The notes: generated by a model from the sequence alone, not told the origin. Numbered from the stretch's first letter, positions 2,714 to 19,175 are shown. The stretch is DNA of 64,000 bases from Acidobacteriaceae bacterium (GCA_003156805.1 PMHV01000030.1:73261-137260), one strand, 5' to 3'. Program-made: numbers and translations.

Positions 2714-4447
2714 CTAGCTCTTCGCTCCCTGTTTCTTCTCCACCCTCGCCCACGCATCTTTCAACGCGACAGTCCGGTTGAAAACCAGCGCACCAGGCTT
2801 TGAGTCGAGATCGACACAAAAATATCCCAACCGCTCGAACTGATACCGTCCGCCCACAGCCGCACTCGCCAGCGAAGGTTCCAGCTTCGCCCCGGTCACG
2901 ATTTCCAGCGAGTTCGGGTTCAGGTTCGCCGTGAAGTCCTGCCCGTCTTCCACCTGATTCGGATCTTCCTTCGTGAACAGGTTCTCGTAAATCCTCACCT
3001 CGGCGTCGATGGCGTGCGCCGCTGAAACCCAGTGAATGGTCGACTTCACTTTCCGTCCGTCGGGCGCATTTCCCCCGCGCGTCGCGGGATCGTAGGTGCA
3101 GTGCACTTCCACCACTTCACCACTCGCGTTCTTCACCACGGTCGTGCAAGTGATGAAGTACCCGTAGCGCAACCGAACCTCGCGTCCCGGCGAGAGCCGG
3201 AAATACTTTGGCGGAGGCACTTCGCGAAAATCATCCTGCTCAATGTAGAGCACGCGCGAGAACGGTACTTTGCGCGTCCCCGCGCCCGCGTCCTCCGGAT
3301 TGTTCACCGCGTCCATCTCTTCGACCTGATTCTCCGGGTAGTTGTCGATCACCACTTTCAGCGGGCGCAGCACCGCCATCACTCGCGGAACCCGCTTGTT
3401 CAAGTCTTCGCGGACGAAGTGTTCCAGCATCGCCAACTCGATTACGCCAGTGGTCTTAGACACTCCGATCGACGCAACGAAATTGCGAATCGCTTCGGGC
3501 GTGTACCCGCGGCGGCGAATGCCTGAGAGCGTCGGCATCCGCGGATCGTCCCAGCCCCGCACGCGTCCTTCCTGCACCAACTGCAAGAGCTTGCGCTTGC
3601 TCAACAACGTGTAAGTGAGGTTGAGCCGGTCGAACTCGATCTGCCGCGACGGAAAAATCCCCAGTTGCTGGATAAACCAGTTGTAAAGCGGGCGATGGTC
3701 CTCGAACTCGAGCGTGCAGATCGAGTGCGTAACCCGCTCGATCGAATCCGACTCGCCGTGCGCGTAATCGTACATCGGATAAATGCACCACTTCGCGCCA
3801 GTGCGGTGATGCTCCGCGTGCACAATGCGGTACATCACCGGATCGCGCATATTAAGGTTGGGCGAGGCCATGTCGATCTTCGCCCGCAGCACCCGCGACC
3901 CATCGGCGAATTCGCCGGCTCGCATCCGCTCAAACAGATTCAGGTTCTCTGCCGCCGCACGATTGCGATACGGACTGTCTTTTCCCGGCTCGGTCAGCGT
4001 GCCGCGATGTTTGCGAATCTCCTCCGCCGACAAATCGTCCACATAAGCTTTGCCGTCTTTGATCAGCTTCATCGCCCATTCGTAAAGCTGATCGAAATAA
4101 TCCGACGCATAGAACAAACCGTCCCAATGAAAGCCAAGCCACTTGACGTCCGCCTTGATCGACTCCACGTATTCGGTTTCTTCCTTCTCCGGATTCGTGT
4201 CGTCAAAGCGCAGGTTCGTGTGTCCGCCGAATTCGTCGGCCAGTCCAAAGTCCAGGCAGATCGCCTTGGCATGGCCGATGTGCAGATATCCGTTGGGCTC
4301 GGGAGGAAAACGCGTCTGCACCCGCCCCTCGTACTTGTTACTCTTCAGGTCGTCAAGAATAATGTCGCGAACGAAGTTCGACGGCGCAGGCGATGGCGAG
4401 GCGTCCACAGCCTTTTGTCCGGCCTCGCTTGGAGAAGATGAATTCAT
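2714..4447 (-). CDS. glnS: Glutaminyl-tRNA synthetase
   Basis: 577 residues, the usual length. A class I synthetase that charges tRNA-Gln in the cytoplasm. The HIGH motif is at residues 56-59 in [14 protein letters not shown], and the KMSKS-type motif reads LLSKRKLL. Long GlnRS-specific stretches are present, such as [37 protein letters not shown] and the C-terminal beta-barrel anticodon-binding domain ending in [11 protein letters not shown]. It converges with the XRE operon and is followed upstream by a hairpin-rich spacer and gltX on the same strand. A dedicated GlnRS implies that Gln-tRNA need not be made by transamidation, though whether GatCAB also exists cannot be seen here. Confidence 0.97.
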
Positions 4448-10540: not shown

Positions 10541-10591
10541 CAGAAGCACCCGAATCGACGCGGGGTCATCAGCAGTTGTCTGTTCGCGCTC

Positions 10592-11122
10592 CTAGTTCCG
10601 TGACGGATAGATTCCCTGCAAGGCGATGACGAAATAAATCGTCAAGTACGGCGGCAGGTTGTTATGCGCCACGTTTCCTCCCGTGTTTTGCACGGCCGCG
10701 GCAGTCATGGAGACGTTGGTGGCTGCGGCGGCGTACACCGGAGGCGGTTCTCTTCCTCCTGCGGCGGCGGCCCAAACGTTGTTCGCCGGCGAACCCGACG
10801 ATCCTGCGCCACCGATGCAGGCCACTCCGTGGCTGTGCGAAGGCAATTGGGTTGGCACCAAAGTCACGGCAAATTCCCCGCCAGTCTCGCCCAAAACGCG
10901 CGGGCTCAACCCACTGCCGTTCCCAGATCCCATGGGCGCCGAGGCCTGCAGATTAGGCAGGGCAAAGTTGCTTTTGCCGTCGCCGCCGTAGTTGGTACCG
11001 AGAAGCGAAAACAAGGCGGTAGCTTGCGAAATAGACATCAGTTGCCCATTGCAAAGCGCCCAGCCCTGCGGCGCAAAATTGAAACCTACCATCCGGATTT
11101 CTCCAAGATACTGATCGGACAT
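10592..11122 (-). CDS. Phage tail-collar domain protein (microcystin-dependent-protein-like), copy 1
   Basis: 176 residues. It starts with YLGEIRMVGFNFAPQGWALC-NGQ, the tail-collar fold signature, then the LLGTNYGGDGKSNFALPNLQ strand and a histidine-containing QLPSHSH motif, and ends in LPPYLTIYFVIALQGIYP. These features define the collar domain of phage tail fibres and the MdpB-like bacterial proteins. There is no signal peptide. A GGAGGG ribosome site precedes the ATG. It is last in a minus-strand array of three paralogues after DUF6916-like and GNAT genes. No other phage genes are nearby, so this is not a prophage remnant in any ordinary sense. The function of such orphan collars is unknown to me. 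Confidence 0.9.
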   Translation of the reverse strand: MSDQYLGEIRMVGFNFAPQGWALCNGQLMSISQATALFSLLGTNYGGDGKSNFALPNLQASAPMGSGNGSGLSPRVLGETGGEFAVTLVPTQLPSHSHGVACIGGAGSSGSPANNVWAAAAGGREPPPVYAAAATNVSMTAAAVQNTGGNVAHNNLPPYLTIYFVIALQGIYPSRN

Positions 11123-11148
11123 AGCAAACCCTCCTCTGGATTCTCGGC

Positions 11149-11661
11149 CTAGCTTCGCGTGGGGAAAATCCCCGTTAACGCGATGATGAAATTGACTACC
11201 AGGTATGGCGAACGGTTCTCGTGGCCTTGATTGCTCCCGTTGTTTGCAATCGCATTGGCCGCCATCGCCGTGTTAAAGGGAGCAGCGGCATATTGTGCAA
11301 TTTGCGATGCCCAGAAGTTGCCGGTCGGAGGGCCGAGAGTGTTGGTAGCGCTGCTGGCTGTAGCCGTGTGAGTATGCGCGGCCATCTCTATCTGCGCCAG
11401 GACGTGCAGCTCCTCTCCGCCGTTTTGGCCCCAGGTGTATGTGGGGGTGCCGGTCTGCAAGCCCGCCTCGATGGGCGCGCGCCCGCGGAAATCGGGGAGC
11501 AGAAAGGTAGTTTGCCCATTGCCGCCAAAGGTGGTTCCCAGAATCGCAAAAAGCGCCTGGTTCTGGTTAATTTGCATCGTTTGTCCGTTGCACGCGGCCC
11601 AGCCCTTGGGCGCGAACCCGAATGCCACCATGCGAATCTCGCCAAGATACGGTGTACCCAT
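11149..11661 (-). CDS. Phage tail-collar domain protein, copy 2
   Basis: 170 residues. YLGEIRMVAFGFAPKGWAAC-NGQ opens the fold, followed by LGTTFGGNGQTTFLLPDFRG, the AAHTHTA histidine motif and a C terminus SPYLVVNFIIALTGIFPTRS. It is a paralogue of its two neighbours, most divergent in the central loop (residues about 105-145). It has a GGAGAG ribosome site and lies 26 bases upstream of copy 1 in transcription order. Confidence 0.9.
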   Translation of the reverse strand: MGTPYLGEIRMVAFGFAPKGWAACNGQTMQINQNQALFAILGTTFGGNGQTTFLLPDFRGRAPIEAGLQTGTPTYTWGQNGGEELHVLAQIEMAAHTHTATASSATNTLGPPTGNFWASQIAQYAAAPFNTAMAANAIANNGSNQGHENRSPYLVVNFIIALTGIFPTRS

Positions 11662-11712
11662 AATCTTCTCTCCAATGCGAGCTGGCGCTAATGTGATCTA
11701 GCGCTGATTCTC

Positions 11713-12225
11713 CTACTGCGACGGATAAACCCCAAAGAGTGAAATGATGAAAGAGAGCACCACAAACGGCAGCATATTGTCGTGCGGTTGGCTGCCGCCG
11801 GTCATTGCGATGGATCCCGCGTTCATCGAGTTGTTCGCCGGAGTGCCGGGCCCATACGTGTTATTAGCGACGCTTCCCCACGAAGCGTTCGCCGGACTCG
11901 ATTGAGCAGCGCCTGAGCCAGCCATTGCCGTGTGCGTGTGTGCCGGCAGTTGGCCGACGGTCAGCGTCACCGTCTGCACTCCGCCCTTTTGGCCAAGGAT
12001 GTAGTTCTGGAGCCCCGCACCCTGTCCCTGGTGGACGGGTATGCGGCCCTGCAGGTCAGGCAGGGCAAAGGTACTCGTACCATCTCCGCCGTAAGTTGTC
12101 CCTAGCAACTGATACAGTGCTTGGTTTTGCGAGATGCTGAGCAATGATCCGTTGCAGAAAGACCATCCTTGAATTGCGAAGGTGCCGCCGAACATTCTGA
12201 TTTCGCCGATATACGGTTGTGCCAT
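11713..12225 (-). CDS. Phage tail-collar domain protein, copy 3
   Basis: 170 residues: YIGEIRMFGGTFAIQGWSFC-NGS, LGTTYGGDGTSTFALPDLQG, QLPAHTHTA and LPFVVLSFIISLFGVYPSQ. It is the first collar gene transcribed, 14 bases after the DUF6916-like gene, with a strong GGAGG site. Three non-identical copies retaining all core motifs suggest that each has a separate role (for example a hetero-oligomer) rather than a recent amplification. Confidence 0.9.
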   Translation of the reverse strand: MAQPYIGEIRMFGGTFAIQGWSFCNGSLLSISQNQALYQLLGTTYGGDGTSTFALPDLQGRIPVHQGQGAGLQNYILGQKGGVQTVTLTVGQLPAHTHTAMAGSGAAQSSPANASWGSVANNTYGPGTPANNSMNAGSIAMTGGSQPHDNMLPFVVLSFIISLFGVYPSQ

Positions 12226-12239
12226 CTTTCTCCCTCCTC

Positions 12240-12572
12240 CTACTGCTGAACCTGATCTCGAACCTGACTCGGAACTTCTATAAGGCGATTGAATACCGCT
12301 TCGTAAAAAGTTCCGCTTTCATCCCGGCCAATCGGAACCAGAAACAAATCGAAGTCGCCGATGGACTCATGTTTCATCGGATAGATTCGCTGCGGAAAGA
12401 CTCTATCGCGATCACCCCGAAAGCGCAACGCAAACTGCTCCTGCCGCGGCGTGGAATGCCCGTTGGTAAGTTCGATCAAATCCATCGCATGTGGTTCCGA
12501 GCTCTCGTCCAGCAGCCAGAACCTTGAGTTGAGACTCTCTTCAAACATGCTCTTAGTCAGATAGATCGACAT
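12240..12572 (-). CDS. DUF6916-like small protein of the collar cluster
   Basis: 110 residues, no signal peptide. Visible features: an N-terminal FEESLNSRFWL, then ALRFRGDRDRVFPQRIYPMKH in the middle and a C-terminal FYEAVFNRLIE. The pattern of an F-R-G segment followed by a polar FLVPIGRDESGTFYEAVFNR ending matches my recollection of DUF6916, a family often found beside tail-collar proteins; this needs a profile search. Its start overlaps the 3' end of the GNAT gene by 16 bases and it has a GGGAG site, so it is in the same operon. Confidence 0.6.
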   Translation of the reverse strand: MSIYLTKSMFEESLNSRFWLLDESSEPHAMDLIELTNGHSTPRQEQFALRFRGDRDRVFPQRIYPMKHESIGDFDLFLVPIGRDESGTFYEAVFNRLIEVPSQVRDQVQQ

Positions 12573-13198
12573 ACGCCGCTCCCAACCTCTGACTCAGCCG
12601 CCGAACCCCGCGCTTCGCGGCTGCCCGATGCCTCGGAGCATGGCTGCCAAACCATCTCCAGATAGACGGGCCCGCTGTTGACCACGCTGAATCCCAGGCG
12701 CTCATACCAGCCCAATGCCGGGTTGAAGCGCTCCACGTGCAGACGCACCGCCTTCGCGCCTTCCGATGCATCCTTCATGATCGCCTGCATCAAAGTGGAC
12801 CCGATCCCCTGCCCGCGAAACTCCGCAAGGATGGCAATATCCACGATGTGAATCTCCTCCGGCTTCCGATCGAGAATCAGCCTCCCCACCGCTGTCTCAT
12901 GGCGACGGATCACCCAATACTCGGCATCGGGAAGTTGCAGCAAGTACGAGCGGCGCTGCGCTTCGTACTGCATGCGCAGGAAGGCTTCCTGCTGATCCGC
13001 ATTCCATCCTGTAAGTGCCATCTCCGCCGTTCGCGTGCTGGCAAAGGTCAAGTATAAGAAGGGTTCGTCCGAGGGACGAACGGGATAAAGGCTGAGGGGC
13101 GGGACACTTATCCCAAAGGTAAGCGTGCCTTCATCTCCGTCAGCAATAAGCGCGTTAAGTCCACTAAGGCTTGGTGCGGAAGACCTTCCCTCGAACAT
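12557..13198 (-). CDS. GNAT-family N-acetyltransferase
   Basis: 213 residues from ATG 13198. A longer open frame reaches 13303 but its extra N terminus (rich in Cys, His) does not look coding. The acetyl-CoA-binding motif A is clear: VDIAILAEFRGQGIGSTLMQ near residue 135, followed by LHVERFNPALGWYERLGFSV. GNAT enzymes acetylate amines or protein termini. Being first in the collar operon suggests it modifies one of the operon products or the giant surface protein encoded divergently. The substrate is unknown. The C-terminal tail (EASGSREARGSAAESEV) is low-complexity. Confidence 0.88.
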   Translation of the reverse strand: MFEGRSSAPSLSGLNALIADGDEGTLTFGISVPPLSLYPVRPSDEPFLYLTFASTRTAEMALTGWNADQQEAFLRMQYEAQRRSYLLQLPDAEYWVIRRHETAVGRLILDRKPEEIHIVDIAILAEFRGQGIGSTLMQAIMKDASEGAKAVRLHVERFNPALGWYERLGFSVVNSGPVYLEMVWQPCSEASGSREARGSAAESEVGSGVCRSI

Positions 13199-13547
13199 GG
13201 CGAGCCGATCACCTAAGGTAAAAAGTAAATGGAAGTGCTGGGCCGAGGCCCGAAAGCGACAAGAGTGGTATTTATGGCAACATGGATGACCTTTGTCAAG
13301 CAAAAATTCGTAAAATTATCGGACTGATCCACCTGAAAAGGGAAAGGTCGTCAGTTGCAAGATGTTTCATCTTGACTTGCCGCGGTAATCGGAGGACCAT
13401 GCCTAACGCGCCCCCAGGGCTTTAGGCCCCGCGTGCTAGGGCCGAAACCCCAGGAAATTAAACCAAATTGACGCCAGCCAACGTGTCCGCGTCTGCCGCT
13501 CTCCCTTGCGGCCTGTACACGACGCAAGGTCTGGCGCGGAGACCTTC
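13199..13547. promoter_or_regulatory. Divergent control region with palindrome CAAGATG-TTT-CATCTTG
   Basis: The 349 bases between the GNAT start (minus) and the surface-protein start (plus) contain no gene. A perfect 7-bp inverted repeat with a 3-base centre lies at 13358-13374, roughly midway, which suits an operator serving both directions. Downstream the leader at about 13390-13460 is GC-rich and can form several short stems. I could not assign it to a known riboswitch. GGAG at 13538-13541 is the ribosome site for the ATG at 13548. Confidence 0.45.
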
Positions 13548-16500
13548 ATGATGCAGCGCCCTCGTCTGAACCGTTCGTTCTATCTGACCCTGCTTGCCAT
13601 TTCTGGCCTTGTGGCCCTGTCTTACTTCCCGCTGAGTAGCATTCGCGCGGCGAATGCCGGTGCCACAATCCTGCCCAGCGCCGCCAAGCCTCTGGTCAAC
13701 CTGAAGAGCCCGCAAACGCTGAAGGTCACTTACACCGGCTCTGCGGACGCAGTGGCGGCATTGCAGGGCGGGACCGCAACTCCCAGGGCATTGGCCGCGG
13801 CGGACTTTGACGCCGATGGCGCCATGGACGTTGTGGCTGGTTACTCCACCGGGAATGGCGGCGTGCTCGCCTTGTTCCACGGCAACCCGGACGCTTTTGC
13901 GCCGAAGGATCTTACTCTCTATGGCAAGGCGGCGAAAGGCAACGTTCCACCCACTTTCCTGTCCAAGGCCGGTGCGTTTGCCGTTCCCGAGTCTCCCGAC
14001 TTGCTGGTGACCGGTGATTTCAACCGCGATGGGAACAAAGACGTATTAGTCGCTGCCCGTGGCGGCAGTCTTTACTTACTTGCCGGCGATGGACACGGAA
14101 ATCTGCTCGCTCCGCAGGCTGTACCACTACCCGGTCAGGTGACAGCGTTGGCCGCCACCCCCGACGGCCATGTCGCGGTGAGCACGGACGGTCCGAACGG
14201 CCCGCAGTTGGCCATGCTCGCTCCCGGCGCCGAGGGTCCCATCGCCGGCGCAACTTATACCTTGCCCAGTCGCGGCGGTGCTATGGAATGGGGAAACCTG
14301 GGCGGCGGAGCCGACCTGGCTGTAGGCGCAGGCGCCAATGTCGTAATGTTCTATAGCGCGCTGGCTACAAACCCGCAGACCGAGACCGTCACCGTTCCTT
14401 TCCAGGTGCAGGGACTTGCCTTAGGCGATTTCATTTGGGACCGCGACGGCCGCACCGAGATTTCCGTTCTTGCCGACGATGGATCGATCCACATCCTGCA
14501 GCATGGGACCCTGAATACAACGCCCATGACGGCTGCGGAGCTTCCCGCCCGCCGCGCCGCGATCCGGGGACATCACAAGCCAGCGGCGACTCCGCCGAAT
14601 CCGACCGCCCTGGGCGCGTGGACCATCGCCAAACAACTGCCTTACACCGGCTCGGCGCCTTCGGGACCGGTCTCGGCTTCGGCTTTTAACTCGCCGCGCG
14701 TGGCCAATTCTTCCACGCCCGATTTGATGGTGCTCGATGCGGCAGCCAGCCAGCTTCATATTCTCGATACCTCCGGCAAAACCGCCAGCCCCAGCGCCGA
14801 CGTTTCTTTCTCCGGCACGCCGGTCGCGGCTCTGGCATTGCCGCAGAAGATCGACTCGGGGCGCGACATCGTCGTGCTCACTTCATCGCAGTCCGCTCCG
14901 TTGCTGGTGACTTCCAACGCCACTCTCACGCTTACCGTAAGCACGACGGCGGACATCGACACCATCAACGCATGCACTACCAGCACCACGTCAATCCCAT
15001 CCACGCTCAGTTTGCGCGAGGCGGTCTGCCTTGCCAACAACATCGCCGACAGCGCCACCACCATCGACATTCCTAACGGCACCTACGACCTCACCAGCCT
15101 GGAAACCGGCGAACTCCAGCAGGGCACCGGCGGCTCCGCCTATAACCTCACGATTAATGGCACGGGAACGGCCGCGGACACCATCATCCAGCAGACCGAC
15201 GGCAAGGACCGCATCCTCGAGGAAGACTACGGTCTCAATGGCAACAACCCGGTCATCATCCAGAACGTGACCATGACGGGTGCTGATTGCACTAACGCCA
15301 ACCCCCCCGGCGACTGCGAAGACGGCGGCGGCGCGATCATCGCCGGCGGCCAGCCCGGTGACACGTTAACTCTCACCAACGTGGTGATGAGCCACAACAG
15401 CACCGGCGGCGCGGTAATCGGGGATGGGGCCAACAATCTCGGCGGTGCAGTCGGAATGGAGGCGCCGGGGAACATAATTATCACCAATTCCACTTTCTCG
15501 AACAACACCGCTGCCAACGGCGGATCGGGTGGCGCGATTGACTTCATAGGAGTGGGCGGCTTAGGAACTGGCAGCATCACGATCACCGGTTCCACGTTCT
15601 CCAGCAATGTTGCGGGCCAGGGTGGCGGCGTAGATTATTCAGTGGAGGCGCCCCAAACCGCCAGCATCTCCGGATCCACCTTCACCGGAAACTCGGTCAC
15701 TGGAACCTCGCCCTACGGCTTTGGCGGTGCAGTTTACGCTGATCTGGAAGGCTCAGGTGGATCCGCGACATTTTCCGGCTCCCGCTTCGCTGGCGACTCA
15801 GCCAGCAACGGAGGTGGTGGAGTTGCGGTGCAAGGCGTCGATTACAGCATTACCGCCGTCAACAACTGGTGGGGCTGCAACGGCGGTCCGGGCGCGTCCG
15901 GCTGCGACACTGTTTATAACGACTCGGCCGACGGCTCGACCGTGACCTTCAATCCCTGGCTGGTGTTGAGCGTCAGCGCTAATCCAAGTCAGATCCTTCC
16001 CAACGCGACCTCGACGCTGACCGCCGACCTCACGCACAATTCGAACGGCATCGGCGGATTCAGCGTTCCCAATGGGACAGCTGTCACCTTCGGCGGCACC
16101 CTGGACAGCAGTATCAACCCGACGAACACCACGCTCACCAGCGGCCAGGCGACCTCTACCTACACAGCCGGATCAACCGCGGGCAACGGCACGGGCACAG
16201 CCACGGTCGACAATCAAGAAGTCAGCGCGACGATCAACATTCTCGACTCCGTCACCGTCACCACCAGCCCCGCTAACTTGTCGATCACAGTAGACGGCGT
16301 CACTTCGACTGCACCGCAGACCTTTAACTGGGTGGTGGGATCGTCGCATATCATCGCAACAACTTCGCCGCAGGCCGGCCCCACAGGTTCGCAATATGTG
16401 TTCGACAGCTGGTCGGATAGCGGCACGATCTCGCATTCGGTCACCGCGCCGGCGGCAACCACAACCTACACCGCCAGCTTCGACACGCAGTATCAATTGA

Positions 16501-19175
16501 CCACCGTGGCTTCGCCGTCTGCCGATGGTTCGGTCACGCCGGCCTCAGGCAGCTACTATGCCTCGGGCGCGGTCATACCCGTTACCGCAACGGCTGGCGG
16601 CGGCTTCCAGTTCAGCAACTGGACCTCGACCGGCGGAACATTTGACTCGACCACCTCCGCCAGTACCAACTTCCACATGCCTGCCGCCGCAGCGACTGTG
16701 ACCGGGAACTTTGTTGCCGCCACGACGCAGATTACGATCACAACCAGCCCCGCCAATCTCCAGGTTTCGGTGGACGGAGGCCCGTTCACGGCAGCCCCGC
16801 TGGTCGAAACCTGGAATCAGGGCTCGTCGCATACCATCGCGACCGAGACGCCGCAATCAGGCGGGACCGGCGTGCAGTATGCGTGGAGTAGCTGGAACGA
16901 CGGCATGGCCATTTCGCACAGCATCACGGTGCCAGGCACGGCCACAACTTACACCGCCAGCTTCAGCACGCAATATCAGTTGACGACCGCGGCGAATCCC
17001 AGTATCGGGGGAACCGTCTCGCCCACTTCTGGCAACTTCTACACCTCCGGAACGGTGGTAGCTCTAACGGCCACCGCCAACGCCGGTTACAGCTTCGTCA
17101 ACTGGACCGGTAACGTCGCGAGCTCCTCCAGCGCCTCCACCAGCATCACCATGACGGCGCCGCAGAGCGTAACCGCCAACTTCTCGCTCATCGTCGTGGC
17201 TGCTCCCACTACGACGTCAGTGTCGTCGAATAACAATCCATCCTTCACCACCGCACCCGGCAACTCGGTCACCTTCACGGCCACGGTAACTTCCAACACC
17301 ACAGTGAACGAAGGCACGATCACATTTAGTGACACAGCCAACGACTTCACGTGCAGCGGCGGTAATACTGTTGCCGTAAGCAACGGCCAAGCCACCTGCA
17401 CCACCTCGTTTAGCACGGAGGTTAGCGAAAACATCACCGCAACCTACAGCGGCACGGTCAATTTCCAGACTAGTAACGGGTTCATCACGCAGACCGTGAA
17501 CAACCACACCGTGGTGACCGGAAACCAATTCTGCAACCAGGGCCCGATCACGGTGCCCAGCACGGCGGGCGCAGCCACGCCGTATCCCTCGAATATCTTC
17601 GTAACGGGTCTGAGCGGCAACGTCGGAGCTGTCACCGTCAACCTCAACAACATCAGCTCGAGCGACATTGCACAAACAGACTTGTTGCTGGTCGGCCCCA
17701 CCGGCGCGCAAATCATTCCCTTCGCCAGCGTGGGAGACAGCTCAACCATTAGCGGCGTAGACATCACGCTCGACGACAGTGCGTCCGGCCTGATCCCGGG
17801 AGGCTCTCCGCTCACTGACGGTTCCTATCAGCCCACGTCGATAACGGGTAGCACCAGCCTGGTCTTCCCGGCTCCAGCACCGTTAGTGAATAAGAGCAAC
17901 TACGCGGCTACGGACGGAGCGGCCACGCTGACTTCAACGTTCCAAAACACCGCTCCCAACGGGACATGGGCGTTGTACGCCATGGATCATTCGGGCAGCG
18001 GCGCGGCAACGATCGGCGGCGGCTGGTGCGTAAACATCTCTCCCCCCGCGGTGCGGACTACGATCACCACCAGCCCCGCAGGCCTCCTGGTTTCGGTGGA
18101 TGGCGGCACTGCAACGGCAGCCCCGCTGGTCGAGAATTGGATCCCCGGCTCGACGCATACCATCGCGACCACCTCGCCACAAACTGGCGCCGGCGTGCAG
18201 TATGTCTTTAGCAGTTGGTCCGACAGTGGCGCGATCTCGCACAGCATCACGGTGCCTTCCACCGCTGCCACCTACACCGCTAGCTTCAGCACGCAATACC
18301 AGCTGACCACGCAGGCTTCGCCGCCAGCGGGCGGCACGGTCACTCCGGCCTCAGGCGGTTATTATGCCGGGGGCGCGGTTATACCCGTGACCGCGACAGC
18401 CAACGCCGGCTTCCAGTTCACTAACTGGACCTCCACCGGCGGATCGTTTGCCTCGTCCACCTCCGCTAGCACGAATTTCACCATGCCCAGCGCTCCGGCG
18501 ACCGTGACCGGAAACTTCACCGCTTCCGCTCCGCAGGTCAGCCTGAACCCGACCAGCATCAACTTCGGAACCCTTTACCTCAACAACCAGACGGTAAGGG
18601 ACGTGACGTTGAAGAACACTGGCAACGCCACGCTCACCATCAGCAGCGTGTCAGTGACGCCGGGTGCCGGGACCAACCCGGGCATTTTCAGACTCCACAA
18701 CATGTGTCCGTCGAGCTTAGCGGCCGGGCATAGTTGCGTCATTCAGGCAGGCATAGTCGCCAACGAAGTGGGTGCGCTTTCCGCCACGCTCAACCTCGCC
18801 GACAATGCTTCCGGAAGCCCGCAACAGGTCCCCCTGTCGGCCACGGTGATCAATCCTCATGCCAACCTCAACCCCACCAGCCTGCATTTTGGCACGGTCC
18901 AAGTCGGCCAAAGCAGTGCTCCTAAAGACATAACCCTTACCAACACGGGAACCACGGCGTTGGACATCACCAGCATTGACATCACTGGCGCGGACAACGG
19001 CGACTTCTCGCAAACCAATGCCTGCCCCAGTTCGCTGGCGCCGACCGACAGTTGCATCATTTCGGTCACGTTCAAGCCCACCACTACGGGTCCACTCTCC
19101 GCCGACCTGAAGGTCGTCGCCAACACTGAAATCGGCACGCATATCGCTGTGATTTCAGGAACGGGGAGCAACTAA
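13548..19175 (+). CDS. Giant mosaic surface protein (FG-GAP, CSLREA beta-helix, Ig-like repeats, choice-of-anchor D)
   Basis: 1,875 residues from ATG 13548, which has GGAG six bases upstream; a longer frame from 13506 lacks such a site. Signal peptide: RSFYLTLLAISGLVALSYFP. Order of parts: FG-GAP/VCBS-type repeats (about 75-470; AAADFDADGAMDVVAGY, TGDFNRDGNKDVLVAARGG); a CSLREA-type segment (TSIPSTLSLREAVCLANNIA) leading into a right-handed beta-helix (about 490-790); Ig-like and repeated bacterial-repeat modules of the GGTVSPTSGNFYTSGTVV type (about 800-1230); a proprotein-convertase-P-like module (about 1335-1505); another repeat set; and two choice-of-anchor-D modules (FGTLYLNNQTVRDVTLKNTG, FGTVQVGQSSAPKDITLTNT) to the end. 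No LPxTG, PEP-CTERM or autotransporter barrel is seen, so anchoring is unclear. Likely adhesive or structural; divergent from the collar operon. Confidence 0.85.
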   Translation: MMQRPRLNRSFYLTLLAISGLVALSYFPLSSIRAANAGATILPSAAKPLVNLKSPQTLKVTYTGSADAVAALQGGTATPRALAAADFDADGAMDVVAGYSTGNGGVLALFHGNPDAFAPKDLTLYGKAAKGNVPPTFLSKAGAFAVPESPDLLVTGDFNRDGNKDVLVAARGGSLYLLAGDGHGNLLAPQAVPLPGQVTALAATPDGHVAVSTDGPNGPQLAMLAPGAEGPIAGATYTLPSRGGAMEWGNLGGGADLAVGAGANVVMFYSALATNPQTETVTVPFQVQGLALGDFIWDRDGRTEISVLADDGSIHILQHGTLNTTPMTAAELPARRAAIRGHHKPAATPPNPTALGAWTIAKQLPYTGSAPSGPVSASAFNSPRVANSSTPDLMVLDAAASQLHILDTSGKTASPSADVSFSGTPVAALALPQKIDSGRDIVVLTSSQSAPLLVTSNATLTLTVSTTADIDTINACTTSTTSIPSTLSLREAVCLANNIADSATTIDIPNGTYDLTSLETGELQQGTGGSAYNLTINGTGTAADTIIQQTDGKDRILEEDYGLNGNNPVIIQNVTMTGADCTNANPPGDCEDGGGAIIAGGQPGDTLTLTNVVMSHNSTGGAVIGDGANNLGGAVGMEAPGNIIITNSTFSNNTAANGGSGGAIDFIGVGGLGTGSITITGSTFSSNVAGQGGGVDYSVEAPQTASISGSTFTGNSVTGTSPYGFGGAVYADLEGSGGSATFSGSRFAGDSASNGGGGVAVQGVDYSITAVNNWWGCNGGPGASGCDTVYNDSADGSTVTFNPWLVLSVSANPSQILPNATSTLTADLTHNSNGIGGFSVPNGTAVTFGGTLDSSINPTNTTLTSGQATSTYTAGSTAGNGTGTATVDNQEVSATINILDSVTVTTSPANLSITVDGVTSTAPQTFNWVVGSSHIIATTSPQAGPTGSQYVFDSWSDSGTISHSVTAPAATTTYTASFDTQYQLTTVASPSADGSVTPASGSYYASGAVIPVTATAGGGFQFSNWTSTGGTFDSTTSASTNFHMPAAAATVTGNFVAATTQITITTSPANLQVSVDGGPFTAAPLVETWNQGSSHTIATETPQSGGTGVQYAWSSWNDGMAISHSITVPGTATTYTASFSTQYQLTTAANPSIGGTVSPTSGNFYTSGTVVALTATANAGYSFVNWTGNVASSSSASTSITMTAPQSVTANFSLIVVAAPTTTSVSSNNNPSFTTAPGNSVTFTATVTSNTTVNEGTITFSDTANDFTCSGGNTVAVSNGQATCTTSFSTEVSENITATYSGTVNFQTSNGFITQTVNNHTVVTGNQFCNQGPITVPSTAGAATPYPSNIFVTGLSGNVGAVTVNLNNISSSDIAQTDLLLVGPTGAQIIPFASVGDSSTISGVDITLDDSASGLIPGGSPLTDGSYQPTSITGSTSLVFPAPAPLVNKSNYAATDGAATLTSTFQNTAPNGTWALYAMDHSGSGAATIGGGWCVNISPPAVRTTITTSPAGLLVSVDGGTATAAPLVENWIPGSTHTIATTSPQTGAGVQYVFSSWSDSGAISHSITVPSTAATYTASFSTQYQLTTQASPPAGGTVTPASGGYYAGGAVIPVTATANAGFQFTNWTSTGGSFASSTSASTNFTMPSAPATVTGNFTASAPQVSLNPTSINFGTLYLNNQTVRDVTLKNTGNATLTISSVSVTPGAGTNPGIFRLHNMCPSSLAAGHSCVIQAGIVANEVGALSATLNLADNASGSPQQVPLSATVINPHANLNPTSLHFGTVQVGQSSAPKDITLTNTGTTALDITSIDITGADNGDFSQTNACPSSLAPTDSCIISVTFKPTTTGPLSADLKVVANTEIGTHIAVISGTGSN

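Follow-up and report, generated by a model that had tools for sequence, protein, structure and literature searches.

Organisation of the tail-collar locus

The DNA analysed here is a window of 64,000 nucleotides from the genome of an Acidobacteriaceae bacterium (GCA_003156805.1, PMHV01000030.1:73261-137260). It harbours three tail-collar genes of the PF07484 family, together with genes for a GNAT acetyltransferase, a DUF6916 protein and a giant surface-type protein. This set is almost certainly a conserved non-phage cassette. The first five genes are located on the minus strand and are transcribed in the order GNAT, DUF6916, collar, collar, collar. The GNAT gene (12557..13198; about 213 amino acids (aa); PF00583, E 4e-15) overlaps by 16 nt with the DUF6916 gene (12240..12572; 110 aa; PF21880, E 1.6e-25, 89.5 bits against a cut-off of 27), the product of which is without a signal peptide. 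The collar genes follow at 11713..12225 (170 aa; E 1.4e-27), 11149..11661 (170 aa; E 1.1e-27) and 10592..11122 (176 aa; E 2.5e-26). All three match PF07484 with 92-96 bits, the cut-off being 24, and they are the only collar genes in the whole genome.

On the plus strand, a gene at 13548..19175 encodes the giant, a protein of 1,875 aa with a hydrophobic N-terminal signal. The divergent intergenic region of 349 bp (13199..13547) is delimited by the assumed start codons ATG 13198 of GNAT and ATG 13548 of the giant; TTG 13303 is a possible alternative start of GNAT. No sigma70-like promoter was found in this region. Profile matches and coordinates thus bear out the layout described in an earlier note on this DNA, namely five minus-strand genes divergent from an exported protein of 1,875 aa across a 349-bp gap.

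Recurrence of the cassette across phyla

The earlier note had raised the question of whether collar triads recur beside GNAT, DUF6916 and a large protein, and they do. When 84,980 species genomes were scanned with a DUF6916 alignment, 80 loci were obtained, which come from Acidobacteriota, Pseudomonadota, Chloroflexota, Actinomycetota, Bacteroidota, Cyanobacteriota and Bacillota. Plasmid records extend the cassette to Deinococcota and to Paenibacillus, both without DUF6916, so that it is spread over at least eight phyla. Some loci belong to metagenome bins, the phylum of which is possibly misassigned; this may be the case for the Bacillota bin L030, whose collars are close to those of Acidobacteriaceae. 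Among the 57 DUF6916 loci with at least 6 kb on either side, GNAT is present in 56 and exactly three collars in 49 (two have six), and a large Thr/Ser/Gly/Val-rich open reading frame (ORF) lies within 3.5 kb in 46. The composition filter behind the last count found no such ORF in six other stretches of 12-15 kb from the genus and a single further one, for an outer-membrane barrel protein, in the window.

The association was also counted within Acidobacteriota. Collars occur in 66 of 396 genomes and DUF6916 in 48; 46 have both, 20 have collars alone, and the two with DUF6916 alone are fragmented assemblies (Fisher p ~1e-41, a value that overstates the number of events because the genomes are related). 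Twenty Acidobacteriota loci were read individually: DUF6916 is present in all 20, GNAT in 19, three collars in 18 and the giant in 19. Closer to the window, DUF6916 was found in three of 61 relatives and collars in the same three plus one more. Within the genus, only 2 of 37 genomes possess the cassette.

The window and genome G015 have a common block from 10588 to 19167, which opens with the last collar and closes with the giant gene. It includes an orthologue of the second collar (G015/L026) and an orthologue of the giant adjoining the same cassette. As G015 carries this block in a different neighbourhood, the cassette behaves as a unit. Of 41 genomes of the genus, 40 have the upstream GGDEF gene; in the five stretches compared around it, no similarity to the window continues beyond this gene. 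On plasmids of Ruegeria TM1040, Sinorhizobium meliloti LMB1, Rhizobium bangladeshense and Phyllobacterium, DUF6916 adjoins GNAT and three genes annotated as "tail fiber", along with a large protein of the Ig or choice-of-anchor type. A Pontibrevibacter plasmid has the same set, its large protein being annotated just as "hypothetical".

Conservation of the five-gene order together with the surface protein, as the earlier note envisaged, holds for gene content but not for order. Outside Acidobacteriota, DUF6916 is mostly encoded divergently; the position of the giant varies, with divergent, co-directional and opposite-side arrangements; and some variants are without giant, DUF6916 or GNAT. On balance this does not refute the reading of the earlier note, and neither does the search for phage structural genes beside the loci of relatives. 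Beyond the core genes and the giant, no further gene is constantly found beside the cassette. The open-access papers found, with subscription papers and preprints outside the search, contained no mention of DUF6916 and no description of the cassette.

Several variants were observed. At L031 12876-19331, L100 12718-19067 (Sphingomonas) and L083 13103-18057 (Rhodopseudomonas), DUF6916, GNAT and three collars are accompanied by a lasso-peptide-like set of asparagine synthase, PqqD, Transglut_core3, HPr-kinase-like and sulfotransferase genes, and the giant was not found at these loci. The Spirosoma plasmid L138 (7436-14699) has three collars, a formyltransferase in the place of GNAT and then a large protein with a cellulose-binding domain. 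Ten loci, including L016 (8830-10047), L136 (9071-10555) and Rhodobacterales loci, encode an additional protein of 400-500 aa between GNAT and the collars, in one case weakly FG-GAP-like. In Mesorhizobium L043 (1-6300), a cassette of the normal type is preceded, at a distance of a few kb, by long collar-matching ORFs of 630 and 623 aa.

The collar triad

In a tree built from 40 triads (120 collars), the collars cluster by position, with 11 changes of position label compared with about 60 after shuffling; single branches are modestly supported, while the overall clustering is far from chance. One group brings together position-3 collars from 33 loci in many phyla, among them the third collar of the window. 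The first collar of the window groups with the position-2 type of other phyla, and the first two types appear order-swapped in Acidobacteriaceae. The position-wise clustering indicates that the three collars diverged before the cassette spread and that each has since kept its identity. The triad is therefore ancient, with members that are not interchangeable. The kept identities are what one would expect if the collars were dissimilar subunits within a single complex.

The two histidines of the HxH motif are present in every one of the 58 aligned collars. In phage and pyocin fibres, the HxH pairs of three chains make one metal site (PMC6116203). A structural model of the window collar at 11713..12225, with a predicted local distance difference test score (pLDDT) of 71, weakly resembles the A-1(L) fibre and T4 gp12, gp10 and gp37 in PDB, at E 0.014 or worse. 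The T4 gp12/gp37 proteins and other PF07484 fibre tips share with the window proteins the collar domain and the HxH metal motif, and possibly a weak structural similarity. However, they are homotrimers on virions, whereas the proteins of the cassette are free-standing, 165-180 aa long and not part of a virus.

A closer parallel is offered by virophage DSLV2. Three consecutive PF07484 proteins of this virophage co-purify 1:1:1 as a heterotrimer that binds lipopolysaccharide (LPS), and they bind Synechococcus cells (PMC12724248). Both systems have three consecutive PF07484 genes of similar size with position-specific clades, those of DSLV2 being T4 gp37-like. The DSLV2 triad, however, is borne on a viral capsid and, in the passages considered, is described with no GNAT, DUF6916 or giant; of the two systems, it is the one with an experimentally established 1:1:1 complex that binds a cell-surface ligand. 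The earlier note had taken the three collars for parts of a hetero-oligomer, a claim strongly supported by position-specific orthology and the virophage heterotrimer. A heterotrimer of the three collars is a likely prediction.

Absence of a phage context

Genes for tube, sheath, baseplate, capsid, portal or lysis proteins were found neither nearby in the window nor near the loci of annotated relatives. The collars are the only PHROG tail matches in the window; a strong match to phrog_12136 at 2714-4447 was rejected as a phage gene, since it is a Gln-tRNA synthetase. This enzyme is one of the cellular neighbours, which also include thioredoxin, DsbD, a GGDEF/HD protein, GH3, ASPIC/UnbV and a TonB-type barrel. 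No tRNA genes occur in the 64-kb window. A search for DUF6916 in 50,697 phage records was negative, and no match in IMG/VR could be confirmed. All tested cassette genes have ratios of nonsynonymous to synonymous substitution (dN/dS) of 0.07-0.30 relative to one or two relatives, and are therefore under purifying selection. Signs of positive selection have been reported for collar paralogues of Solibacter (PMC3174227), but were not seen between the window collars and those of relatives.

These observations bear on the possibility that the locus is the remnant of a prophage, a tailocin or a gene-transfer agent. PF07484 is typical of phage fibres, and three collars of Caulobacter K31 have been reported as a phage region (PMC4221894). 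Nevertheless, a remnant is highly improbable: the neighbours are cellular, DUF6916 is unmatched in phages, and selection has been maintained on the cassette. A prophage remnant in particular was rejected on the neighbours, the lack of phage genes nearby and DUF6916. The earlier note came to the same view, and it holds also in relatives, where phage structural genes outside the loci were looked for and not found, and where the cassette is conserved with a large surface protein across phyla.

Phage collars share roughly 30-40% identity with those of the window. In a tree that did not include the DSLV2 proteins, triads from the virus-like IMG/VR contigs L194, L208 and L214 group with phage collars, apart from the bacterial triads. 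It follows that the bacterial triads form a separate lineage and that the triad probably arose more than once. At these three contigs, the tandem collars adjoin long collagen-like Gly-x-y proteins. Contig L190, which is classed as viral but may be bacterial, carries GNAT and three collars.

The giant surface protein

The giant of the window is composed of an FG-GAP stretch, Divergent InlB B-repeats, a bacterial Ig domain and two C-terminal ASH / choice-of-anchor-D domains. Apart from its Sec-like signal, the choice-of-anchor-D domains are its only sorting feature: it is without the C-terminal beta-barrel of type V autotransporters, which is present in proteobacterial counterparts, and without a type IX secretion system (T9SS) or S-layer homology (SLH) anchor. 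The earlier note expected a recurring CSLREA/Ig protein. Instead of a single conserved family, a class of mosaics was found, built of Ig, cadherin, He_PIG, beta-helix and other repeats and having mainly repeat types in common.

A signal-like stretch was detected by a crude test in 43 of 56 complete giants. Their anchors match the cell type: several Pseudomonadota have an autotransporter barrel, Dyadobacter a T9SS sorting domain and a Chloroflexota bin SLH domains; such clade-appropriate anchors argue for a surface role across cell types. Type V autotransporters, T9SS substrates and SLH proteins thus have the same anchors as the giant partner in several clades, but not as the giant of the window.

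Giants at eight loci (L029, L044, L057, L077, L081, L084, L087, L097) from several phyla end in a common pattern like PGYGG..YLxGRN...ACPxP. This very end has no Pfam or NCBIfam name and is a candidate interface domain. In the cyanobacterial Symploca locus L033 (13004-20297), the large neighbour looks by eye like an RHS/YD-repeat protein, not an Ig protein.

DUF6916, GNAT and the question of export

The AlphaFold2 model of DUF6916 is confident and almost all-beta (pLDDT 90.6). It has no structural relatives at E <= 0.001 in PDB or BFVD; the top PDB match, at E 0.057, was to a Diffocin baseplate protein and was rejected as non-significant. About 20 loci have a DUF6916 copy, usually a second one, with a twin-arginine translocation (Tat) signal such as SRRNFIQ or TRRKFLS. 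These loci (L020, L027, L044, L066, L074, L075, L081, L082, L087, L093 and ten or so of L169-L187) come mostly from Acidobacteriota, Actinomycetota and Denitromonas/Rhodocyclaceae-type genomes. The Tat pathway exports folded proteins, and partners devoid of a signal can travel with a signal-bearing protein. The Tat-signal copies suggest that DUF6916 may mediate co-export of the signal-less collars in those clades. Whether DUF6916 is in general an assembly or export partner is evenly balanced. The export puzzle pointed out in the earlier note persists in the window genome, where collars and DUF6916 alike are signal-less.

The nearest NCBIfam model of the GNAT protein is RimI, at 44.9 bits and thus under the equivalog cut-off of 86.4; its acetyl-CoA motif R/G is invariant. 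The second residue of the collars is Ser, Ala, Thr or Gly in 249 of 266, and they contain a median of one Lys. If GNAT acts on the collars, an N-terminal target is therefore likelier than Lys side chains. That it acetylates collar N-termini is a tentative and somewhat doubtful proposal based on these sequence features.

Proposed function and alternative explanations

The cassette may encode a domesticated, heterotrimeric phage-fibre tip that acts together with an anchored protein of the cell surface, probably in attachment; a probability of about 0.5 is assigned to this explanation. One copy of each collar type would form the heterotrimer, and the HxH pairs of its three chains would hold a metal ion that pins the tip. 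GNAT might acetylate the collar N-termini, which start with Ser, Ala or Thr. DUF6916 would assist assembly or export, and its Tat-signal copy may carry the folded collars out of the cell in some clades. Placed on or with the anchored giant, the collar head would then bind a glycan or another surface ligand. A role in surface attachment, taken by itself, is slightly favoured. The whole sequence of events, in which a virus-derived fibre tip is put together in the cytoplasm, receives N-terminal acetyl groups, is Tat-carried in folded form by DUF6916 and is mounted on giant clade-specific scaffolds, would amount to a new class of surface appendage in at least eight phyla; in its entirety, this is unlikely.

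Several observations weigh against the attachment tip. Ser, Ala and Thr are common at position 2 of bacterial proteins generally. The structural model of the collar is of low confidence as a monomer, and export in the window genome, which has DUF6916 only without a signal, is unexplained. The giants are not one orthologous family, and loci may be incomplete: the giant is missing in 11 of 57, DUF6916 in Paenibacillus and Deinococcus, and GNAT in Spirosoma. Finally, a collar protein detected in the exoproteome of Ruegeria pomeroyi (PMC4949626), which speaks for the tip, may not belong to such a cassette.

The same detection, together with the missing signal peptides, would fit a soluble agglutinin or lectin that is freed by lysis of some cells, as pyocins are, with the giant as docking partner or receptor and not as carrier. 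RhiA, a product of the related rhi operon, is cytoplasmic (PMC2275737), which also agrees with this idea. It is an unlikely explanation, though one to be reckoned with: no lysis genes lie within or beside the cassette, and the Tat-signal copies of DUF6916 point to regulated export in some clades. Those copies and the exoproteome finding likewise argue against collars that act in the cell or periplasm, for example as a sensor or in the assembly of the giant, without ever getting to the surface. The lack of signals on collars, GNAT and most DUF6916 copies would suit such a role, but characterised collar proteins are surface-binding fibre tips, those of DSLV2 included (PMC12724248), and this makes the explanation improbable.

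It is quite improbable that the heterotrimer serves competition or immunity by binding glycans of neighbours or of its own cell, for instance to mask phage receptors. A phage-type receptor-binding fold, LPS binding by the virophage heterotrimer (PMC12724248) and the patchy distribution in the genus (2/37 genomes) are compatible with it. However, the cassette is not recurrently accompanied by effector or toxin genes, and a defence system was rejected because PADLOC gave no match.

Non-phage collar proteins are not without precedent. RhiB of the Rhizobium leguminosarum rhiABC operon (COG4675, "microcystin-dependent protein") is a quorum-regulated collar protein linked to plant interaction (PMC6969944, PMC13133039), and COG4675 proteins have been detected in a soil metaproteome (PMC5579227). 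RhiB, likened here by description and not by sequence, differs in that it has been reported as the lone collar of a different operon. Viruses are known to have collar triads and bacteria to have anchored adhesins; their combination is undescribed in the open-access literature searched.

Significance

If the attachment tip is real, very many genes named "tail fiber protein" or "microcystin-dependent protein" would belong to a conserved cell-surface system and would not be prophage debris. The position-specific triad makes the predicted heterotrimer directly testable, and the cassette gives DUF6916 a context. Its Tat-signal copies provide a concrete handle on how signal-less trimers of the phage type could exit cells.

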